A DNA stretch of 64,000 nt from Bacteroidota bacterium. Its GTDB lineage: Bacteria > Bacteroidota > Bacteroidia > Palsa-965. Each line of letters opens with the position of its first letter. The stretch's first letter is position 1. The position numbers were made by a program, and so were the translations under genes. Under the pieces are notes generated by a model that had not been told where the DNA came from, searched no databases, and saw only the letters and a list, made by a program, of their open reading frames with translations. Shown here one piece after another: positions 5,960 to 28,191 of this stretch. Where the stretch lies: positions 1 to 64,000 of the forward strand of contig PLYR01000020.1 in the NCBI GenBank assembly GCA_003153435.1. The letters run 5' to 3'.

Positions 5960-8056
5960 TTATTTCATGTCTTTTATGACATTGACTGCTTCAAAGAGAT
6001 GAATGTCTTTCCGAAGTCTTTTCTGGAAATCCTTTTCCCTTGCCATTTTTGTGGTATCATTTTTAATCACCTGTAAATCGGATGACAAAGTGATCAATTC
6101 CATGCCGGCAATATCCTTATCCAAAGCTTCATACTTTTTGCCGGTCTCTTCCACACCTTTCTCTTTAGCGTGATATTTTACCAGATTCAATGTTTCATAG
6201 GTATCATCTCGTTGATTTTTCAAGCGTTGGGCCTCTTCAGCAAGGAGCTTGAACGATTCGCTACTCTTGGTACGAGCTTCGCTTTCTTTCCGGAGTTTAT
6301 CGTACGACAGTGGGTGAATATTCCAGGTCTGATAATCGGCTTTGCTAATCTCATCCCATTTCATCGGGTAATCCAGTTCCCGCTCTCCAAGATCAAGATA
6401 CATATAACGGTCAGGAAGAATAATATCGGGAACGACCCCTTTCAGCTGAGTGGCCCCGCCACTGATTCTATAAAACTTGGATCGGGTCACTTTGACTGAA
6501 CCCAAGGGTTTGAAATTCGCATATGCTGGGTTCAGTTGCTCATCCAGATCGGAGAACTGCTGAACACTTCCCTTTCCAAAAGTAGATGAACTGCCCATAA
6601 TGATACCTCTTTTATAATCCTGTATCGCTGCTGCCATAATTTCAGATGCCGAGGCACTTCCGGAATTAACCATGACTACCAATGGCCCATCATAAATGAG
6701 GCTTTCTTCCCGATCGCTTAAAACAGTTGGAATACCAGTCCGGCTCTTCACCTGTACAATAGGGCCTTTGTCAACGAACAGTCCGGCCATATCCACTACA
6801 TCAGAAAGTGATCCCCCTCCATTGTCGCGAAGATCAAGCACGATACCATCTACCGTATCGGCCTTCAGTTTCATAATCTCCTTCTTGACATCAGCGGCAC
6901 AGTTATGTCCACCCAACCGTTTAAAATCTGCATAGAAAGAGGGCAACTTAATGTAACCTATCCTCATACCATTCTCCTTCACAATATCAGAGTGCGCATA
7001 AGTCTCTTCCAATTGTACAATATCACGGATGATGGAAATGATCTCGGTTCCACCTGCAACCTTTCTTACGGTAAGTCTGACTTCCGTTCCTTTCTTTCCT
7101 CTGACTATCTTCACCACATTATCCAGCTTCATTCCGGTAACCTCCACTGGCTCCCCATCTCCTTGAGCAACTTTAAGAATAATATCTCCGGCTTTCAGTT
7201 TCCCCTGACGCCAGGATGGGCTACCGGGAACAATGCTTGAAACTTTAATTTCCTCATCTTTTTGCTGAAGCTGGGCACCTATCCCTTCCACTTGTCCGCT
7301 GAGTGCAATATCGAAGTTGTCGCGTTCCACTGGGGCAAAATATTCGGTATGGGGATCGTAAGCTCCTACGATGCAATTCAGATAAAGTGAAAACCGGTCT
7401 TCCCGATCCACCTTATTAAGTCTCTCGAATATCTCATCTTCTGACTTAAGCACCTTTTTCCTGGCATCTGCTTCCATTTCAGTAGCGTTTTTTTTCTTGA
7501 AGCTGGTATCTTTCTTTGCGATTGCTTTCTCTTGTTCGTTCATCATATCATTCAGTCTGAACAAAACCTGGTATTTCAGGTATTTTCTCCAGTCCTCCTT
7601 CAATTCTTCCTTTGAAGCGGCATACTTAAACTTATCAGGATTTAATTCTACACTCTCTTCCTTGGTAAAATCAAAAGGTTTGGAAAGTATGTCCTTATAA
7701 TACTGCTGATCTTCCTTGGTCCTCTTATTAATGATTTCAAGACTGAGGTTAAAGAAATCAAGTTTGTTGTTTAGAACCTGATCATCGATCTCGTATTTAT
7801 ATTTGGAAAATTTATCAACGTCTTCCTGCAACAGAATTTTCTTATTGTAGTCCAGGCGTTTCAGGTAGAGACTGAATACATGAAGGGAAAAACTGTCGTT
7901 AAAAATCTGGGGATTGTAATGATTTGCATTAAGGTTCTCAAGCAGCCGGGCCTGAATAACCTCATCCTTCGTTGGTGAGCCTGAAAACAATACACAGGAA
8001 GTGACCAAAACCAAAAGGCTCAGGGATACAGAAATTCGAATCAGGGTAGGTTTCAT
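5960..8056 (-). CDS. Carboxy-terminal processing (tail-specific) protease, S41 with PDZ
   Basis: PDZ region (VEGIGAQLQQKDEEIKVSSIVPGSPSWRQGKLKAGDIILKV), catalytic VVMVNSGSASASEIMAAAIQDYKRGIIMGSSSTFGKGSVQ. Start taken at internal ATG 8056 (MKPTLIRISVSLS, signal peptide). Confidence 0.92.
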   Translation of the reverse strand: MKPTLIRISVSLSLLVLVTSCVLFSGSPTKDEVIQARLLENLNANHYNPQIFNDSFSLHVFSLYLKRLDYNKKILLQEDVDKFSKYKYEIDDQVLNNKLDFFNLSLEIINKRTKEDQQYYKDILSKPFDFTKEESVELNPDKFKYAASKEELKEDWRKYLKYQVLFRLNDMMNEQEKAIAKKDTSFKKKNATEMEADARKKVLKSEDEIFERLNKVDREDRFSLYLNCIVGAYDPHTEYFAPVERDNFDIALSGQVEGIGAQLQQKDEEIKVSSIVPGSPSWRQGKLKAGDIILKVAQGDGEPVEVTGMKLDNVVKIVRGKKGTEVRLTVRKVAGGTEIISIIRDIVQLEETYAHSDIVKENGMRIGYIKLPSFYADFKRLGGHNCAADVKKEIMKLKADTVDGIVLDLRDNGGGSLSDVVDMAGLFVDKGPIVQVKSRTGIPTVLSDREESLIYDGPLVVMVNSGSASASEIMAAAIQDYKRGIIMGSSSTFGKGSVQQFSDLDEQLNPAYANFKPLGSVKVTRSKFYRISGGATQLKGVVPDIILPDRYMYLDLGERELDYPMKWDEISKADYQTWNIHPLSYDKLRKESEARTKSSESFKLLAEEAQRLKNQRDDTYETLNLVKYHAKEKGVEETGKKYEALDKDIAGMELITLSSDLQVIKNDTTKMAREKDFQKRLRKDIHLFEAVNVIKDMK

Positions 8057-8085
8057 ATCGGATGTTATGTCCACGAAATTACTTA

Positions 8086-8116
8086 AATAAAAGCAGACCC
8101 GAAGGTCTGCTTTAGT
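8086..8116 (-). terminator. Intrinsic terminator with UUCG tetraloop for the gene at 8182-12399
   Basis: On the - strand AAGCAGACC-TTCG-GGTCTGCTT (perfect 9-bp stem, 8091-8112) followed by TTATTT. Confidence 0.8.
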
Positions 8117-8181
8117 TAAAAAAACACAAAAAACATGCACTGGCAGGAAGAATCTCCTACCAACGATTAATCTCTTCAGAG

Positions 8182-11100
8182 TTAATGATGTGCACCTCCT
8201 CCAAAAGAACTGTATTGAATATTGAGAGTTCTGACGGCAGTTCCATAAGTGTTTACAATTTTAATCTCAATCGTATTCATGCCCGGGTTCAGATTAGGTT
8301 TGAAAGTAAGTGTGTGGGTACCATCTGAATATCCGGTACCGAAATTGAACGGTGCACCATTTACCTTCACGGTGATATCTCCCTGTGCCACTGTTCCGCC
8401 CATGGAACAGGTTACCTGCGGATTTGGCAAAGAAGCAAGCGCCGGAGCTCCTGTTGGACTTAAAACAAGGATTGAAGGCACCATAGAGGCACCATAACCT
8501 TGTGTATGTGTCCCGGTTCCGGTTCCATTGCCTCCCCCACCGGTCATTGGACTGCTCAGCATCAGAGTAGTGGATTTGGTATCAGATCCGCTTGCATTTG
8601 TAGCTGTGATTACAAAATTATTCTGGCCTAAGATCAGTCCATCATGAATCAGGAGCACATGAGAGTTAGGATCGTAAGTAAATGCAACGGATACAGAATT
8701 CCTTGTCACATTGATCCCGTTACTTGCAGTTACATTCTGCACAGTTGCAGTTACCCCATCGGTAGCTACAACGGTAGTATATGGATTAGAGGTTGGAGCT
8801 GTAATGGTTACTATGGGTCTTGGAGGAGGAGGTGGTATGTTTGTAAACTCCACATTCACTGATTTACTATCGCTACCTCCTGCATTCGTCGCGGATACAA
8901 CAATCATATTACCACCATCATGCAAAGGAGCTGAGAAGCTCAATGCCTTCGTGGTCACATTGAAGTTGAAACCGGAAATATTAGTTCCATTCACAGTCAC
9001 CTTAATAGCAGATGCCTGGGCTACATTCTGTACAGTAGCGTTCACCGGCATCGGGGAATTATGAGTGGACCAGGGCTGAGAAGGAGGATTTGTGATGGTT
9101 ACAATTGGCTTAGGTATTGCTGGTGGGGTGTAAATCACAACCTGAGTAGCAGTAGTTGTTCCACTCGCATTGGTTGCAGCAATCGTGTAACTATTCACAT
9201 CTGGTGTTAGCACGGTTGAGAAAGAGAGTGTTCCATTTCCAGGATTGAAGACAAAATTCGGAATATCTCCTGCGGCGCTGGTCACCTTTACCTGACTCTG
9301 TAGGGATACATTTTCAACAATCGCATTGAGTGTAAAGGAACTCATCGCTGTATTGAAAGGGCTGGCAGAAGGGTTGCTAATAATTATTACTGGCTTAGGC
9401 AATACCGGAGCATTATAAATCACATCCATGGTTTTGGTATCCGTACCGGTAGAATTAGTACCACTCAGGATGAAATAGTTGTTACCCGGATTCAGGGGCG
9501 TATTAAAAGTCAGCTTACCGGAGACCGGGTCAAAGTTCATATTCGTGGAGGTTGCTCCATTGATCTGCAGGTGGATATTACGGACAGAATTTACATTTAC
9601 AACCTTTGCCTCCACAGAGACCGAATTAACAGTCGTAGTATATGGACTTGGAGAAGGCTGCAGGAAAGTCACGATTGGCCGTGGCAATCCAGCATCTCCG
9701 CTTCCTGGGACATATTTCACCGACATGTTTTTATTATCCGATCCGCCATCATTGGCTGCGAGAATATTAATAGAATTCATTCCCGGATTTAGAAGCGCAT
9801 TAAATGTGACCGTATGGGTGGAAAGAGAAAAACCGAATCCATACAGATTAACTCCATTCACAATTACCTGGATCTGGCTTGCCATAGTCACATTCATAAC
9901 TGTAGCTTTTATTGGAAGAGGGCTCATGGGTGAAATGAATGGATTATTCACCGGAACGACAAACGTAATTAAAGGAGGACTGACTACGATTGGCGTATAA
10001 ACAACTTCGAGGCTTTTTGTATCATATCCTCCGTTGTTGGTTGCAGTGATACGGATATCACTATTTCCCTGATTGAGATTCGATGTAAACTGAAGTGCCT
10101 TGCTTACCGGAGAATAAACAAAATTGTTTACGGGTATTCCGTTCATGGTCACCGTAATCTGCGATGCTGCAGTAACGTTGACAACCGTTGCATTGACTGT
10201 AAGACTGGAAACAGATGTTCCGTAAGGGTTTCCTATCGGGGAAATAATATTTACGATAGGTCGTGGCAGCATAGGCTGGGTATATTCTACAGTAAGCTGT
10301 TTCGAATCAGAACCTCCGGAGTTCGTCGCTGAAATCACAAAGGAAGTGTTGCCATTCGTGAGTGGCGCACTGAATTCGAGTATACGTGTAGAAAGATTAT
10401 AAACAAATGAATTCAGGTTACTTCCATTCATGCTTACCTTAATCTGATTCGGGAAATTCACATTGTCCACCCGGGCCCTGATGAGTATATAATCAGTAGA
10501 AGTGATGAATGGATTGTTGTGAGGAACCTGTATGGTGACCACTGGAGCAGGTACCGTAGGAGGAGTGTAAACGATATCCATCGATTTACTATCCGTTCCG
10601 GTAGCATTCGTTGCGCTGAGGTAGTAGTAATTATTTCCACCAACCAGCGCAGGGTTATAGTTAAATGTTCCACGATTCGGATCAAAACTGAAATCCAAAT
10701 GCCTTTGGCCATTTACAGTAAACAGGATCTGATTGGGATCAGTTACATTTTGAATCTGAGCAGAAAGCGTACCATTTGGTGAATTAGTAAGGAATGGAGT
10801 ATTACCTGGTATCGTGAATTGAACAACCGGAGGAGGAACAGAATAATAAACCGGGGTATAGATGACATTCAATCCTTTACTATCTGACCCACCGCGGTTT
10901 CCTGCCAGGATATAAACGTAGTTATTTCCAGGGCTGAGAGACATGGTAAACTGCATCAGATGTGAACCTGGATCGAATTGAAAATTAGAAGAACCGGCTC
11001 CGTTAATTTTCAACTGTAGTTCAGATACATTCCACACATTGTTGACGATGGCGGTTACCGCAACCATATTGGAAGATGTGTTGTAAGGGTTTTGCACCGG

Positions 11101-12399
11101 AGAGGTAATGGTGATGACCGGAGGAGCCTCCACAGGGGTGGTATGAATAATGGTATAATAGAAGTATTGGGTTTTGGAATCCGTCCCATAAGCGTTGGTA
11201 GCGGTGATCGTAATCGTATTGCTACCTTCGATTAAATAAAAATCACCATTAAACACTCCATCTGCGGTGTTGAAATGCCAGGAGTTGATAGGCATTCCAT
11301 TCACGGTTACCTGAACATCATTTGCATTTGGCACATTGTGAATTTGAGCAGTAACCATACCATCTCCCTGACTGGTTTGGAAAGGATTCGCTGTTGGATA
11401 GGTTATATAGATTGTTGGTCTTGCTCCGGACGGTGGCGGTGGAGGGGGCGGCGGAGGAGGATTTTTTATATGAGTATCTGTAGTTACATGCCCATCAGTT
11501 CCACCGGATGTATGAGTATGATGTTTTCCACCAAATCCGAATTTGATAAAGAAATCAGCATAATTATATCTGTTATGAGAAACCAGCGCGGCATTATTCT
11601 GAGTCCACTGCACACCATCAATTGGCACATTACCTGCAAATGTCACCTTATACTCTACCCCTATCTGGAAAAAGTTCTTTACCTGGTAACCCAGTCCTAT
11701 TCCCAGTGATGGCATAAAATGCCAAGTCGGTGTAGCGCTTCCATCAGCTGTCGTTTCATAATTATGATCCATCTTAGCACTCAGGGCATTCGCAATCTGA
11801 GTCTTGTTCATGGTGCCGGCCGTATCAATGCCTTTAAAGTTATAGGGTACGTTGTTAGCGTCTCTCATATCGAGGAAGGTTTGCGTTTGCACCATTCCTA
11901 CCCCACCAAAAAGATATGCCAGAGGTCCTGAACCCGTTCTTTTGTTAATCAGATTGGGTCCGGCGAGGATTTCAAGACTCAGTTCATGAAGGGTCATCAT
12001 ATAGTTATTGTACACAAAGCCACCACTCTTGACAAAGTTCAGGGTTGTATCAGTCCCCCCATTCAGAGCCTGATTGTTTTTAATCCCATAATTTCGGTTA
12101 TAATCCTGCCCATAGGTGGAAGCACTCAGGTATCGGAAACGCCAGCCCAGGAAAATTTTGCTATCGGTATAGGTGAGGTAATTCTTTCCCACCGTAAATC
12201 CTCCCCCGAAACCTGCATGATCAACAGGTACGTTGGAATTTTGCCAGGCTCCGCCCAGGTTTAACCCTATCCAAACCGGGTTCCTGAAATTGCTGGGATT
12301 ATTTGGGGTCTCTGTCGCAACGGTTTGGGCCTGGAACGAAGGAACCGAAAAGCCGATGAATAAAAATGCAAGACAAAATAGAGTAGTGATTTTCTTCAT
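8182..12399 (-). CDS. Giant protein: N-terminal outer-membrane beta-barrel-like domain, His-rich and deca-proline linker, 11 tandem Ig-like (~95 aa) repeats
   Basis: Signal peptide; barrel-like aa ~30-295; PPPPPPPPPP at aa 314-323; repeats of pattern P-x-[IV]VTIxxPxxNPYxTxxxxxxVxAxVxNVxxxxxIxVxxNG...NNxxITATNxxGSDSKxxxVxYTP. Confidence 0.85.
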   Translation of the reverse strand: MKKITTLFCLAFLFIGFSVPSFQAQTVATETPNNPSNFRNPVWIGLNLGGAWQNSNVPVDHAGFGGGFTVGKNYLTYTDSKIFLGWRFRYLSASTYGQDYNRNYGIKNNQALNGGTDTTLNFVKSGGFVYNNYMMTLHELSLEILAGPNLINKRTGSGPLAYLFGGVGMVQTQTFLDMRDANNVPYNFKGIDTAGTMNKTQIANALSAKMDHNYETTADGSATPTWHFMPSLGIGLGYQVKNFFQIGVEYKVTFAGNVPIDGVQWTQNNAALVSHNRYNYADFFIKFGFGGKHHTHTSGGTDGHVTTDTHIKNPPPPPPPPPPSGARPTIYITYPTANPFQTSQGDGMVTAQIHNVPNANDVQVTVNGMPINSWHFNTADGVFNGDFYLIEGSNTITITATNAYGTDSKTQYFYYTIIHTTPVEAPPVITITSPVQNPYNTSSNMVAVTAIVNNVWNVSELQLKINGAGSSNFQFDPGSHLMQFTMSLSPGNNYVYILAGNRGGSDSKGLNVIYTPVYYSVPPPVVQFTIPGNTPFLTNSPNGTLSAQIQNVTDPNQILFTVNGQRHLDFSFDPNRGTFNYNPALVGGNNYYYLSATNATGTDSKSMDIVYTPPTVPAPVVTIQVPHNNPFITSTDYILIRARVDNVNFPNQIKVSMNGSNLNSFVYNLSTRILEFSAPLTNGNTSFVISATNSGGSDSKQLTVEYTQPMLPRPIVNIISPIGNPYGTSVSSLTVNATVVNVTAASQITVTMNGIPVNNFVYSPVSKALQFTSNLNQGNSDIRITATNNGGYDTKSLEVVYTPIVVSPPLITFVVPVNNPFISPMSPLPIKATVMNVTMASQIQVIVNGVNLYGFGFSLSTHTVTFNALLNPGMNSINILAANDGGSDNKNMSVKYVPGSGDAGLPRPIVTFLQPSPSPYTTTVNSVSVEAKVVNVNSVRNIHLQINGATSTNMNFDPVSGKLTFNTPLNPGNNYFILSGTNSTGTDTKTMDVIYNAPVLPKPVIIISNPSASPFNTAMSSFTLNAIVENVSLQSQVKVTSAAGDIPNFVFNPGNGTLSFSTVLTPDVNSYTIAATNASGTTTATQVVIYTPPAIPKPIVTITNPPSQPWSTHNSPMPVNATVQNVAQASAIKVTVNGTNISGFNFNVTTKALSFSAPLHDGGNMIVVSATNAGGSDSKSVNVEFTNIPPPPPRPIVTITAPTSNPYTTVVATDGVTATVQNVTASNGINVTRNSVSVAFTYDPNSHVLLIHDGLILGQNNFVITATNASGSDTKSTTLMLSSPMTGGGGNGTGTGTHTQGYGASMVPSILVLSPTGAPALASLPNPQVTCSMGGTVAQGDITVKVNGAPFNFGTGYSDGTHTLTFKPNLNPGMNTIEIKIVNTYGTAVRTLNIQYSSFGGGAHH

Positions 12400-12548
12400 A
12401 GTGGGATGTGTTTAATTCGCATTTACAGGAACCTTGCCACAAATGAAGGCAAATATTCAAACGACTGAAAATGTGAATGTTCTATTGGATTTTGTCCAAA
12501 TTTATTAAAAAAAGCGTATGGAAAAGGTTATTGAAGTATGAAAATCCA

Positions 12549-25952: not shown

Positions 25953-26540
25953 GTGGTCCTCCTCTCCTCACATATAAGGAATTTATCCGATGCCGAACTG
26001 GTATCGAAGTATAAAGAAACCGGAGAAAACATTTGTGTTGGGGAGTTATTCAGGCGTTATATGCACCTTGTTTTTGGTGTTTGTATGAAATATCTTCGGG
26101 ACGAAGACAAAGCTAAAGACCTTCAAAGCCATATCTTCGAACGCCTCCTTACCGATCTGCTTAAGCATGAAGTCGGGAACTTCAAAGGATGGCTTTTTTC
26201 TGTGGCTAAAAACCACTGTTTGATGCATCTGAGAAGTAACCAAAGTCTGCTAAAAAATCAGAAAGAGTTAAAAAAAGACCTGAAACCGGATATGGAATCG
26301 GGATTTGAACTGCATCATAATCCTGTACTGGAGAAAGAACTTCAGCTCGACAAACTGGAGACGGGAATACAACAGCTTAATGAAGGACAAAAAGTTTGTG
26401 TGGAATTATTTTATATGAAGGAAAAGAGTTACCGTGAAATTGCCGACCTCACCGGATATAGCCTGCATGATGTGAAAAGTTATATACAGAACGGGAAAAG
26501 GAATTTGAAATTATTTATGCAACAACAAGATGAACGGTAA
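25953..26540 (+). CDS. ECF-type RNA polymerase sigma factor
   Basis: Region 2 (LFRRYMHLVFGVCMKYLRDEDKAKDLQSHIFERLL), region 4 (YMKEKSYREIADLTGYSLHDVKSYIQNGKRNLK); GTG start. Confidence 0.88.
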   Translation: MVLLSSHIRNLSDAELVSKYKETGENICVGELFRRYMHLVFGVCMKYLRDEDKAKDLQSHIFERLLTDLLKHEVGNFKGWLFSVAKNHCLMHLRSNQSLLKNQKELKKDLKPDMESGFELHHNPVLEKELQLDKLETGIQQLNEGQKVCVELFYMKEKSYREIADLTGYSLHDVKSYIQNGKRNLKLFMQQQDER

Positions 26541-28191
26541 GGGAACAACACTCTTCGACCCCCATACAGCTTGTCTCACCGAGCAAGCAATGTATGATTA
26601 CCTAGACGGGAAATTACTTCCGTCTGAGAGTCATATTGTGGAAAAACATCTGCTGGACTGTGCATTCTGTTCTGAAGCCATAGAGGGACTCGAACTCGTC
26701 AAAGACCGCTCTAAAGTAATGGCTGCGTTGCCGCTCACTGGAACACAGGATGAAGAAAACAAGAAAGGCTCCGGAGGAAGGATTCGCCCCTTATACTTCA
26801 ACACCAGGATCACTATTGCCGCAATTATTGTCCTGCTCACCGGAAGCTTTGTGGTACTGAAATATACGATGGGTGATTTCGAAAAGAAAGCCAACCTTTC
26901 CCAGAATAGTTCAGCGGAGAAAGCAGACACTACGAAAAATGGACTCGTAACCTCTGATGATGAAACATTTTATAAACATTTCGAACCTTTTCCAGCCAAT
27001 GAAACTCCGGAAAAGAAAACCGAAAATGCAACGGAGCGGAATGAAACCGGAGAATCCAAACCGGTTTATAACTGGACCTCATCAAATTCCCGTAATCCTG
27101 CACAAGGTGGCGATATGACTGCTCAGGTCTTGACTCTTCCCCCATCGCCAGTGTCAGGAGCTAAAGCTGTTCCGGATGAAGAGAGTCTGAGACAAGACGA
27201 TGCAAAGACTCCTTTCCGTGAACAGAAAACAACCCCTGCACCTGCGTCAGAACCTGTTGCTGCTTTCAAACAAGAAAAAGAAAAAGATGAATCAGGCAAG
27301 ATGAACGCTCGGAGTGAAAGTGAAAGTAAGACCCAGGACAAAACCATCGAAACTGACAATTTAAACAAGGCCACCACTAACAGTGAACATGTTGCTGAAG
27401 CTCCTGCTGCGAAGAATGCAAACAAAGCAGGATCTAAAGCAGCTAAAAAACAAGCTGCTGATGATCAGAGCAAGACTGACAACTATACTTACCAGTCGCC
27501 CGAAGCAGCTAAAGATGCCCCGAAAAAGGACGCCGGGCCTGACCAGAATAGAAAGCTGATCGTGGAAAAATCCGAAGAAAAAAACAAGGAGAGGCAGATA
27601 ACCATGGCCGATTCGGTCACTTCACTCATTACTACCAAAACAACGAATGCTAATCAAATTACAACTACGCTGGGTAGTACTTCTTTAGATTATCGGAACA
27701 ACAAGGAAATTAGCACGGTTAACGGAGGCCAGGGTACCGGTTCTGTTGCCAAAGTAACCACTGCAACAGGCGGATATTTTAGCCTCTCCAATACAACAAA
27801 CAGTGCCAACATCTCAACAGCAAATACCCCCATTGACGAGGCCATGAAAGCTTATCTGGCCAAAGATTTCCAGGGAGCGGTTGACAAATTCACTAAAATA
27901 CTCCTCACTGATCCTGGTAATACGAAAGCCTTATTCTACGCAGGTGTTTCATATCTTAGCCTAGCAACACCGGATACGAAACATGCCATAGATAATTTCG
28001 ATCGGGTTCTGGTTTCAGAGGATGCCTCCTTTGGGGAAGCTTCCAAATGGTATAAAGCACTTGCGCTCATTAAAGAGAACAACACTGCACAAGCTAAACC
28101 TTTGCTTGATGAAATCAATAACGGATCAGGAGCCTATAAAGCGAAAGCTGCCAGTGTGCTAAAGGATTTGAATAAAGCAAAGAAGAAATAG
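26530..28191 (+). CDS. Anti-sigma-like zf-HC2 membrane protein with disordered linker and TPR C-terminus
   Basis: ORF overlaps the sigma factor by 11 nt; zinc-finger-like HIVEKHLLDCAFCSEAI, TM helix, low-complexity linker, TPR-like ending (AYLAKDFQGAVDKFTKILLTDPGNTKALFYAGVSYLSL). Confidence 0.75.
   Translation: MNGKGTTLFDPHTACLTEQAMYDYLDGKLLPSESHIVEKHLLDCAFCSEAIEGLELVKDRSKVMAALPLTGTQDEENKKGSGGRIRPLYFNTRITIAAIIVLLTGSFVVLKYTMGDFEKKANLSQNSSAEKADTTKNGLVTSDDETFYKHFEPFPANETPEKKTENATERNETGESKPVYNWTSSNSRNPAQGGDMTAQVLTLPPSPVSGAKAVPDEESLRQDDAKTPFREQKTTPAPASEPVAAFKQEKEKDESGKMNARSESESKTQDKTIETDNLNKATTNSEHVAEAPAAKNANKAGSKAAKKQAADDQSKTDNYTYQSPEAAKDAPKKDAGPDQNRKLIVEKSEEKNKERQITMADSVTSLITTKTTNANQITTTLGSTSLDYRNNKEISTVNGGQGTGSVAKVTTATGGYFSLSNTTNSANISTANTPIDEAMKAYLAKDFQGAVDKFTKILLTDPGNTKALFYAGVSYLSLATPDTKHAIDNFDRVLVSEDASFGEASKWYKALALIKENNTAQAKPLLDEINNGSGAYKAKAASVLKDLNKAKKK

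Follow-up and report, generated by a model that had tools for sequence, protein, structure and literature searches.

An OmpA-type outer-membrane barrel bearing eleven Ig-like domains: a probable periplasmic tether or scaffold in Bacteroidota

The window analysed here, a stretch of 64,000 nucleotides from a Bacteroidota bacterium, carries on its minus strand a gene for one polypeptide of 1405 amino acids (aa) that joins a barrel, a linker and 11 Ig-like repeats, as the initial annotation had proposed. The features of the gene are listed below.

8182..12399, minus: whole gene, 1405 aa, single ORF with ATG start
12325..12399, minus: predicted signal peptide, about aa 1-25, MKKITTLFCLAFLFIGFSVPSFQAQ (from sequence; ortholog starts similar)
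11527..12288, minus: eight-stranded OmpA-type outer-membrane barrel, aa 38-291, about 255 aa (AlphaFold2 model, Foldseek OmpA match, homologs)
11422..11529, minus: His-rich and proline-rich linker, aa 291-326 (pLDDT <50 over most of its first part; sequence)
11431..11460, minus: ten prolines (P10), aa 314-323 (sequence)
8545..11421, minus: Ig-like repeats 1-10, aa 327-1285 (repeat-model scores; Ig fold in models)
8479..8544, minus: disordered Gly/Thr-rich linker ahead of the last repeat, aa 1286-1307 (pLDDT <50)
8203..8478, minus: last Ig-like repeat, aa 1308-1399 (last repeats of orthologs form a separate clade; predicted Ig fold)
12424..12439, minus: degenerate sigma54-like element TGGCAAGGTTCCTGTA, 40 to 25 nt before the start codon (comparison with ortholog upstream regions)

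The gene is the sole one of its kind in its own genome, and its architecture is neither chance nor an assembly artefact, because it was found again in 47 other genomes. The deca-proline lies where it had been reported and is encoded by a mixture of four different proline codons; the His-rich segment described ahead of it is likewise present, beginning at aa 291. Searches of Pfam and NCBIfam with the 1405-aa protein returned no T9SS CTD, OmpA domain (PF00691), LysM or intimin barrel match. The absence of a T9SS CTD had been noted before, and the protein was rejected as T9SS cargo on this ground; by the domain test it is not a member of the OmpA family, PF00691 being absent. The barrel part has no Pfam match and the repeats have only weak Ig/cadherin-like ones. 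Sequence searches with the whole protein and with the barrel profile found no solved relative; a PHROGs search gave only one weak match, of type unknown, a viral fold library only generic Ig matches, and a scan of the GTDB collection with a single barrel query one weak match, which was set aside. The tail-specific protease gene prc (S41, DUF3340; 5960-8140, minus) lies 42 bp downstream on the same strand. An operon with prc was considered and rejected, since this adjacency was not seen in the relatives compared.

An AlphaFold2 model of aa 38-522, computed from an alignment of 14 sequences, has a mean pLDDT of 84.6 and contains eight long strands, the barrel mostly at 80-95, which bears out the earlier suggestion of an N-terminal outer-membrane barrel. 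Loops 3-4, 5-6 and 7-8 are long (33, 49 and 19 residues in the window protein; 30-38, 43-54 and 16-21 across the family), and turns 2-3, 4-5 and 6-7 are short. The linker falls below pLDDT 50 at model residues 255-276, that is most of aa 292-313, and is followed by P10. In Foldseek the first-ranked barrels are OmpA entries (9fzc, E 1.6e-7, TMt 0.69). Three invariant residues, R87, R89 and E249, sit on the more polar face of their strands; their placement on the lumen side is compatible with a filled barrel.

As the strand number is even, both ends of the barrel should lie on the short-turn side. OmpA's own C-terminal domain lies in the periplasm, connected through a flexible linker (PMC5071624). 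The short-turn side of outer-membrane barrels, OmpA among them, is the periplasm, and the C-terminus is therefore expected to leave the barrel into that compartment. The homologs lead to the same placement. Homologous barrels in the class carry a PF00691 OmpA domain in five cases (L041, L042, L112, L113, L114) and a SPOR domain in one (L049), and other barrel relatives have EF-hand/TSP3 segments. Since OmpA and SPOR domains bind peptidoglycan, the exit at the C-terminal end should be periplasmic. Strand count, loop pattern and homologs together place the Ig repeats most likely in the periplasm, so that of the two topologies left open by the initial annotation, an outside stalk or a periplasmic spacer, the second is favoured and the first is unlikely. 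The likeness to OmpA and OprF comprises the eight-stranded barrel, the fold match, the disordered linker after the last strand and the OmpA domain on homologous barrels; the difference is that the window protein, 1405 aa in total, has in place of the OmpA C-terminal domain a series of 11 Ig-like repeats, the terminal one distinct.

The main alternative is an adhesin like the inverse autotransporters, in which the linker would run through the barrel and the Ig repeats would stand outside the cell with a binding tip. Intimin has the same order of barrel, Ig domains and distinct last domain, and the inverse autotransporters (T5eSS) have a 12-stranded barrel with the linker inside the lumen (PMC7312957). 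Total length and variable repeat number also fit a surface stalk, as do Foldseek matches of the repeats to surface Ig proteins such as SiiE and SGBP-B. However, the window barrel has eight strands, not twelve, its lumen side carries invariant charged residues, homologous barrels bear periplasmic OmpA/SPOR domains at the same exit, and neither an intimin-barrel nor a LysM match was obtained. The linker is modelled at low confidence, and lumen charges and strand number speak against its threading through the lumen. Membership of the intimin/invasin family was rejected for the wrong strand number and the lack of a family match (Pfam, NCBIfam). The initial annotation was thus right that the barrel does not look like that family, but the intimin-like order did not hold as a guide to topology, given the strand number, the OmpA structure match and the domains on homologous barrels, and a surface stalk is judged unlikely.

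The 11 repeats start at aa 327, 426, 523, 618, 713, 808, 907, 1002, 1097, 1194 and about 1308, each spanning about 95 aa, and a model derived from these same repeats scores every one of them at 90-117 bits. Ig folds were obtained for r1-r2 in the AlphaFold2 model of aa 38-522 and for r9-r11 in a structure model with pLDDT 88.6. The best Foldseek matches of the repeats are titin and receptor Ig tandems and LdtMt2, which tell the fold and not the function. LdtMt2 is a cell-envelope L,D-transpeptidase whose Ig-like domains serve as an envelope spacer; it shares with the window protein tandem bacterial Ig-like domains and a close fold match, but the transpeptidase domain is absent from the window protein and the outer-membrane barrel from LdtMt2.

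The last repeat had been described as the most divergent, following a Gly/Thr linker and perhaps forming a tip or binding domain. It shares 19-31% identity with the others, compared to 25-45% among repeats 1-10, and aa 1286-1307 ahead of it are indeed a Gly/Thr-rich disordered stretch. A tree of 148 repeats taken from 20 near orthologs has a clade of 17 that includes 15 last repeats, and for 17 of the 20 last repeats the nearest neighbour is another last repeat; most near orthologs also have a longer linker before it. This signal is clearer in the tree than in BLAST best-match counts, which gave none across all orthologs (0.17 vs 0.18 by chance) and a moderate one among near orthologs (0.27 vs 0.14), where other positions were also above chance. 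Because the last repeats form their own clade behind a longer linker, these data support a specialised terminal domain in the near-ortholog part of the family, and with the predicted Ig fold they lend support to the idea of a tip or binding domain.

The same regions bear on another reading, in which the protein sits in the outer membrane and its Ig chain and His-rich linker mainly bind periplasmic carbohydrate or metal and do not act as a tether. A His-rich linker segment occurs in the window protein and in one relative (L031), and the last repeat has a weak Pfam match to CBM60 (E 0.0065, under the cut-off). Yet the His-rich segment is not kept in most orthologs, the CBM60 match is sub-threshold and the SGBP-B match reflects fold only, which makes this reading quite improbable. 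Least probable of all is an accessory barrel of the T9SS related to PorG, with the repeats holding part of the secretion machinery: the NCBIfam PorG model gives 19 bits on the window barrel and up to 50 in relatives, a distant similarity far under the curated cut-off of 130 bits, and the neighbouring genes that were scanned included none recognised as T9SS. Identity with PorG itself was rejected, as the real PorG lies elsewhere in the genome (C112, 186.6 bits); moreover, the PorG model, at 209 positions, lacks a repeat region.

The survey of the architecture proposed in the initial annotation found it to recur. Searching with the barrel alone identified relatives in 20 of 59 neighbouring genomes, and, of the 395 genomes sampled from the class, 78 matched a 14-row barrel profile. 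Long barrel-Ig proteins were counted by the author in 48 of the 395, across 11 family labels and with one copy each; most of the remaining profile matches have open frames between 450 and 620 aa. Barrel, linker and Ig-like repeats are common to the long proteins, which are mostly 770-2560 aa in size, some being cut by contig ends. According to the repeat model each has 1 to 21 recognisable repeats, five proteins of one family (L106-L110) having a single one followed by other sequence, and many end in low-complexity Pro/Lys/Ser tails. A tree of 61 barrels separates the 47 that bear Ig repeats from the rest with none misplaced, though on a branch of low support (0.417). The literature search found no paper on this barrel-Ig architecture.

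Upstream of the gene, a sigma54-like -24/-12 element was spotted by eye in the ortholog sequences and then tested, a post hoc procedure in which the contrast is nevertheless large. Immediately before the start codon, GGCAY-N6-TG occurs in 21 of 47 orthologs, which carry five family labels and are not independent, and 12 of the 21 have GC at the -12 place; sigma54 promoters have the form GG-N10-GC. Three control windows further upstream contained the element in 1, 1 and 0 of 47 cases, and it was present upstream of only 1 of 279 other genes. The copy of the window gene is degenerate, TGGCAAGGTTCCTGTA. An unbiased two-box motif scan of the upstream regions gave nothing above shuffles, and single-sequence shuffle P-values for the element are weak. 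The sigma54 gene rpoN was found in all six genomes tested, and the own genome encodes sigma54 activators.

A second link to regulation comes from the neighbouring genes. In seven genomes of the same family (L029, L030, L032-L036) and in one of another family (L085), the gene and an ECF sigma gene are divergently oriented, with an anti-sigma gene of the zf-HC2 type next after the sigma gene where the contig permits. The genomes checked have 12-30 sigma region-4 matches each, which puts the likelihood of a chance neighbour on the order of 1% per genome, but the seven genomes are related. Expression of OprF depends on the ECF sigma factor SigX (PMC3597554), a dependence comparable with the ECF sigma neighbour in these relatives. 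The sigma54-type element in many orthologs and the adjoining ECF sigma/anti-sigma pair in some suggest that expression is probably tied to envelope regulation. An ECF sigma/anti-sigma pair is also present in the window at 25953-28191 (plus), 13.5 kb from the barrel-Ig gene; it is orthologous to the one adjoining the gene in same-family genomes, and the locus seems split in the window. In nine other genomes (two families), a PD40/CarboxypepD_reg/OmpA gene lies directly upstream on the same strand at about 50-270 bp. Several genes with PD40 and/or OmpA domains are clustered in the window at 30213-50969.

Taken as a whole, the protein is most likely an outer-membrane protein of OmpA topology whose periplasmic Ig chain acts as an envelope tether or scaffold (probability roughly 0.7), an assignment drawn from sequence and structure models. 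The signal peptide would direct the protein to the periplasm, and the barrel would insert into the outer membrane with both termini periplasmic and the long loops outside. The flexible His/Pro-rich linker would then lead into 11 Ig-like domains within the periplasm, the last of them a distinct Ig domain set off by a flexible linker of its own. Besides topology, the single-copy conservation, the barrel tree, the PD40/CarboxypepD_reg/OmpA gene upstream in nine genomes and the clade of last repeats count in favour of this reading. As a tether, the barrel would anchor and the Ig chain provide reach, taking the place of the peptidoglycan-binding domain in the OmpA-like layout, and we infer that the conserved last domain may bind a partner such as peptidoglycan, an inner-membrane protein or another periplasmic protein.

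Counting against a periplasmic tether, repeat number varies widely, as in surface stalks, a known peptidoglycan-binding domain is absent (Pfam), and the branch of Ig-bearing barrels is the poorly supported one noted above. At about 4 nm each, 11 Ig domains would extend about 45 nm, and relatives have up to 21 recognisable repeats. As 45 nm exceeds the width of a typical periplasm, there is no room for the chain as an upright rod; it would have to be bent or laid flat, or else be located outside. A bolder version of the tether reading, and a doubtful one, would have a conserved, sigma54-controlled Ig chain that spans the periplasm, docks through its last domain on either peptidoglycan or the inner membrane, and serves as an extensible tether or envelope ruler. 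No tether or ruler function for an OmpA-type barrel carrying Ig repeats turned up in the literature search.

Proteins in which Ig repeats follow a barrel are readily taken for intimin-like adhesins; here, an OmpA-type barrel bears such a chain, most likely directed inward. If the tether reading holds, roughly one genome in eight of those sampled from the class would have a single-copy envelope protein with a long periplasmic Ig chain, often together with a terminal domain and a promoter element that are both conserved, and how these bacteria link outer membrane, wall and inner membrane would become testable.

Two further observations concern relatives. A motif of the type ICHYPPGN...SAWxAHQAHGDxxGxC is found near the C-termini of the distant orthologs L097, L099 and L106-L110 and is a possible alternative terminal domain. 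In L037 (1-4058, minus) the repeats contain regularly spaced cysteines, unlike those of the window protein.
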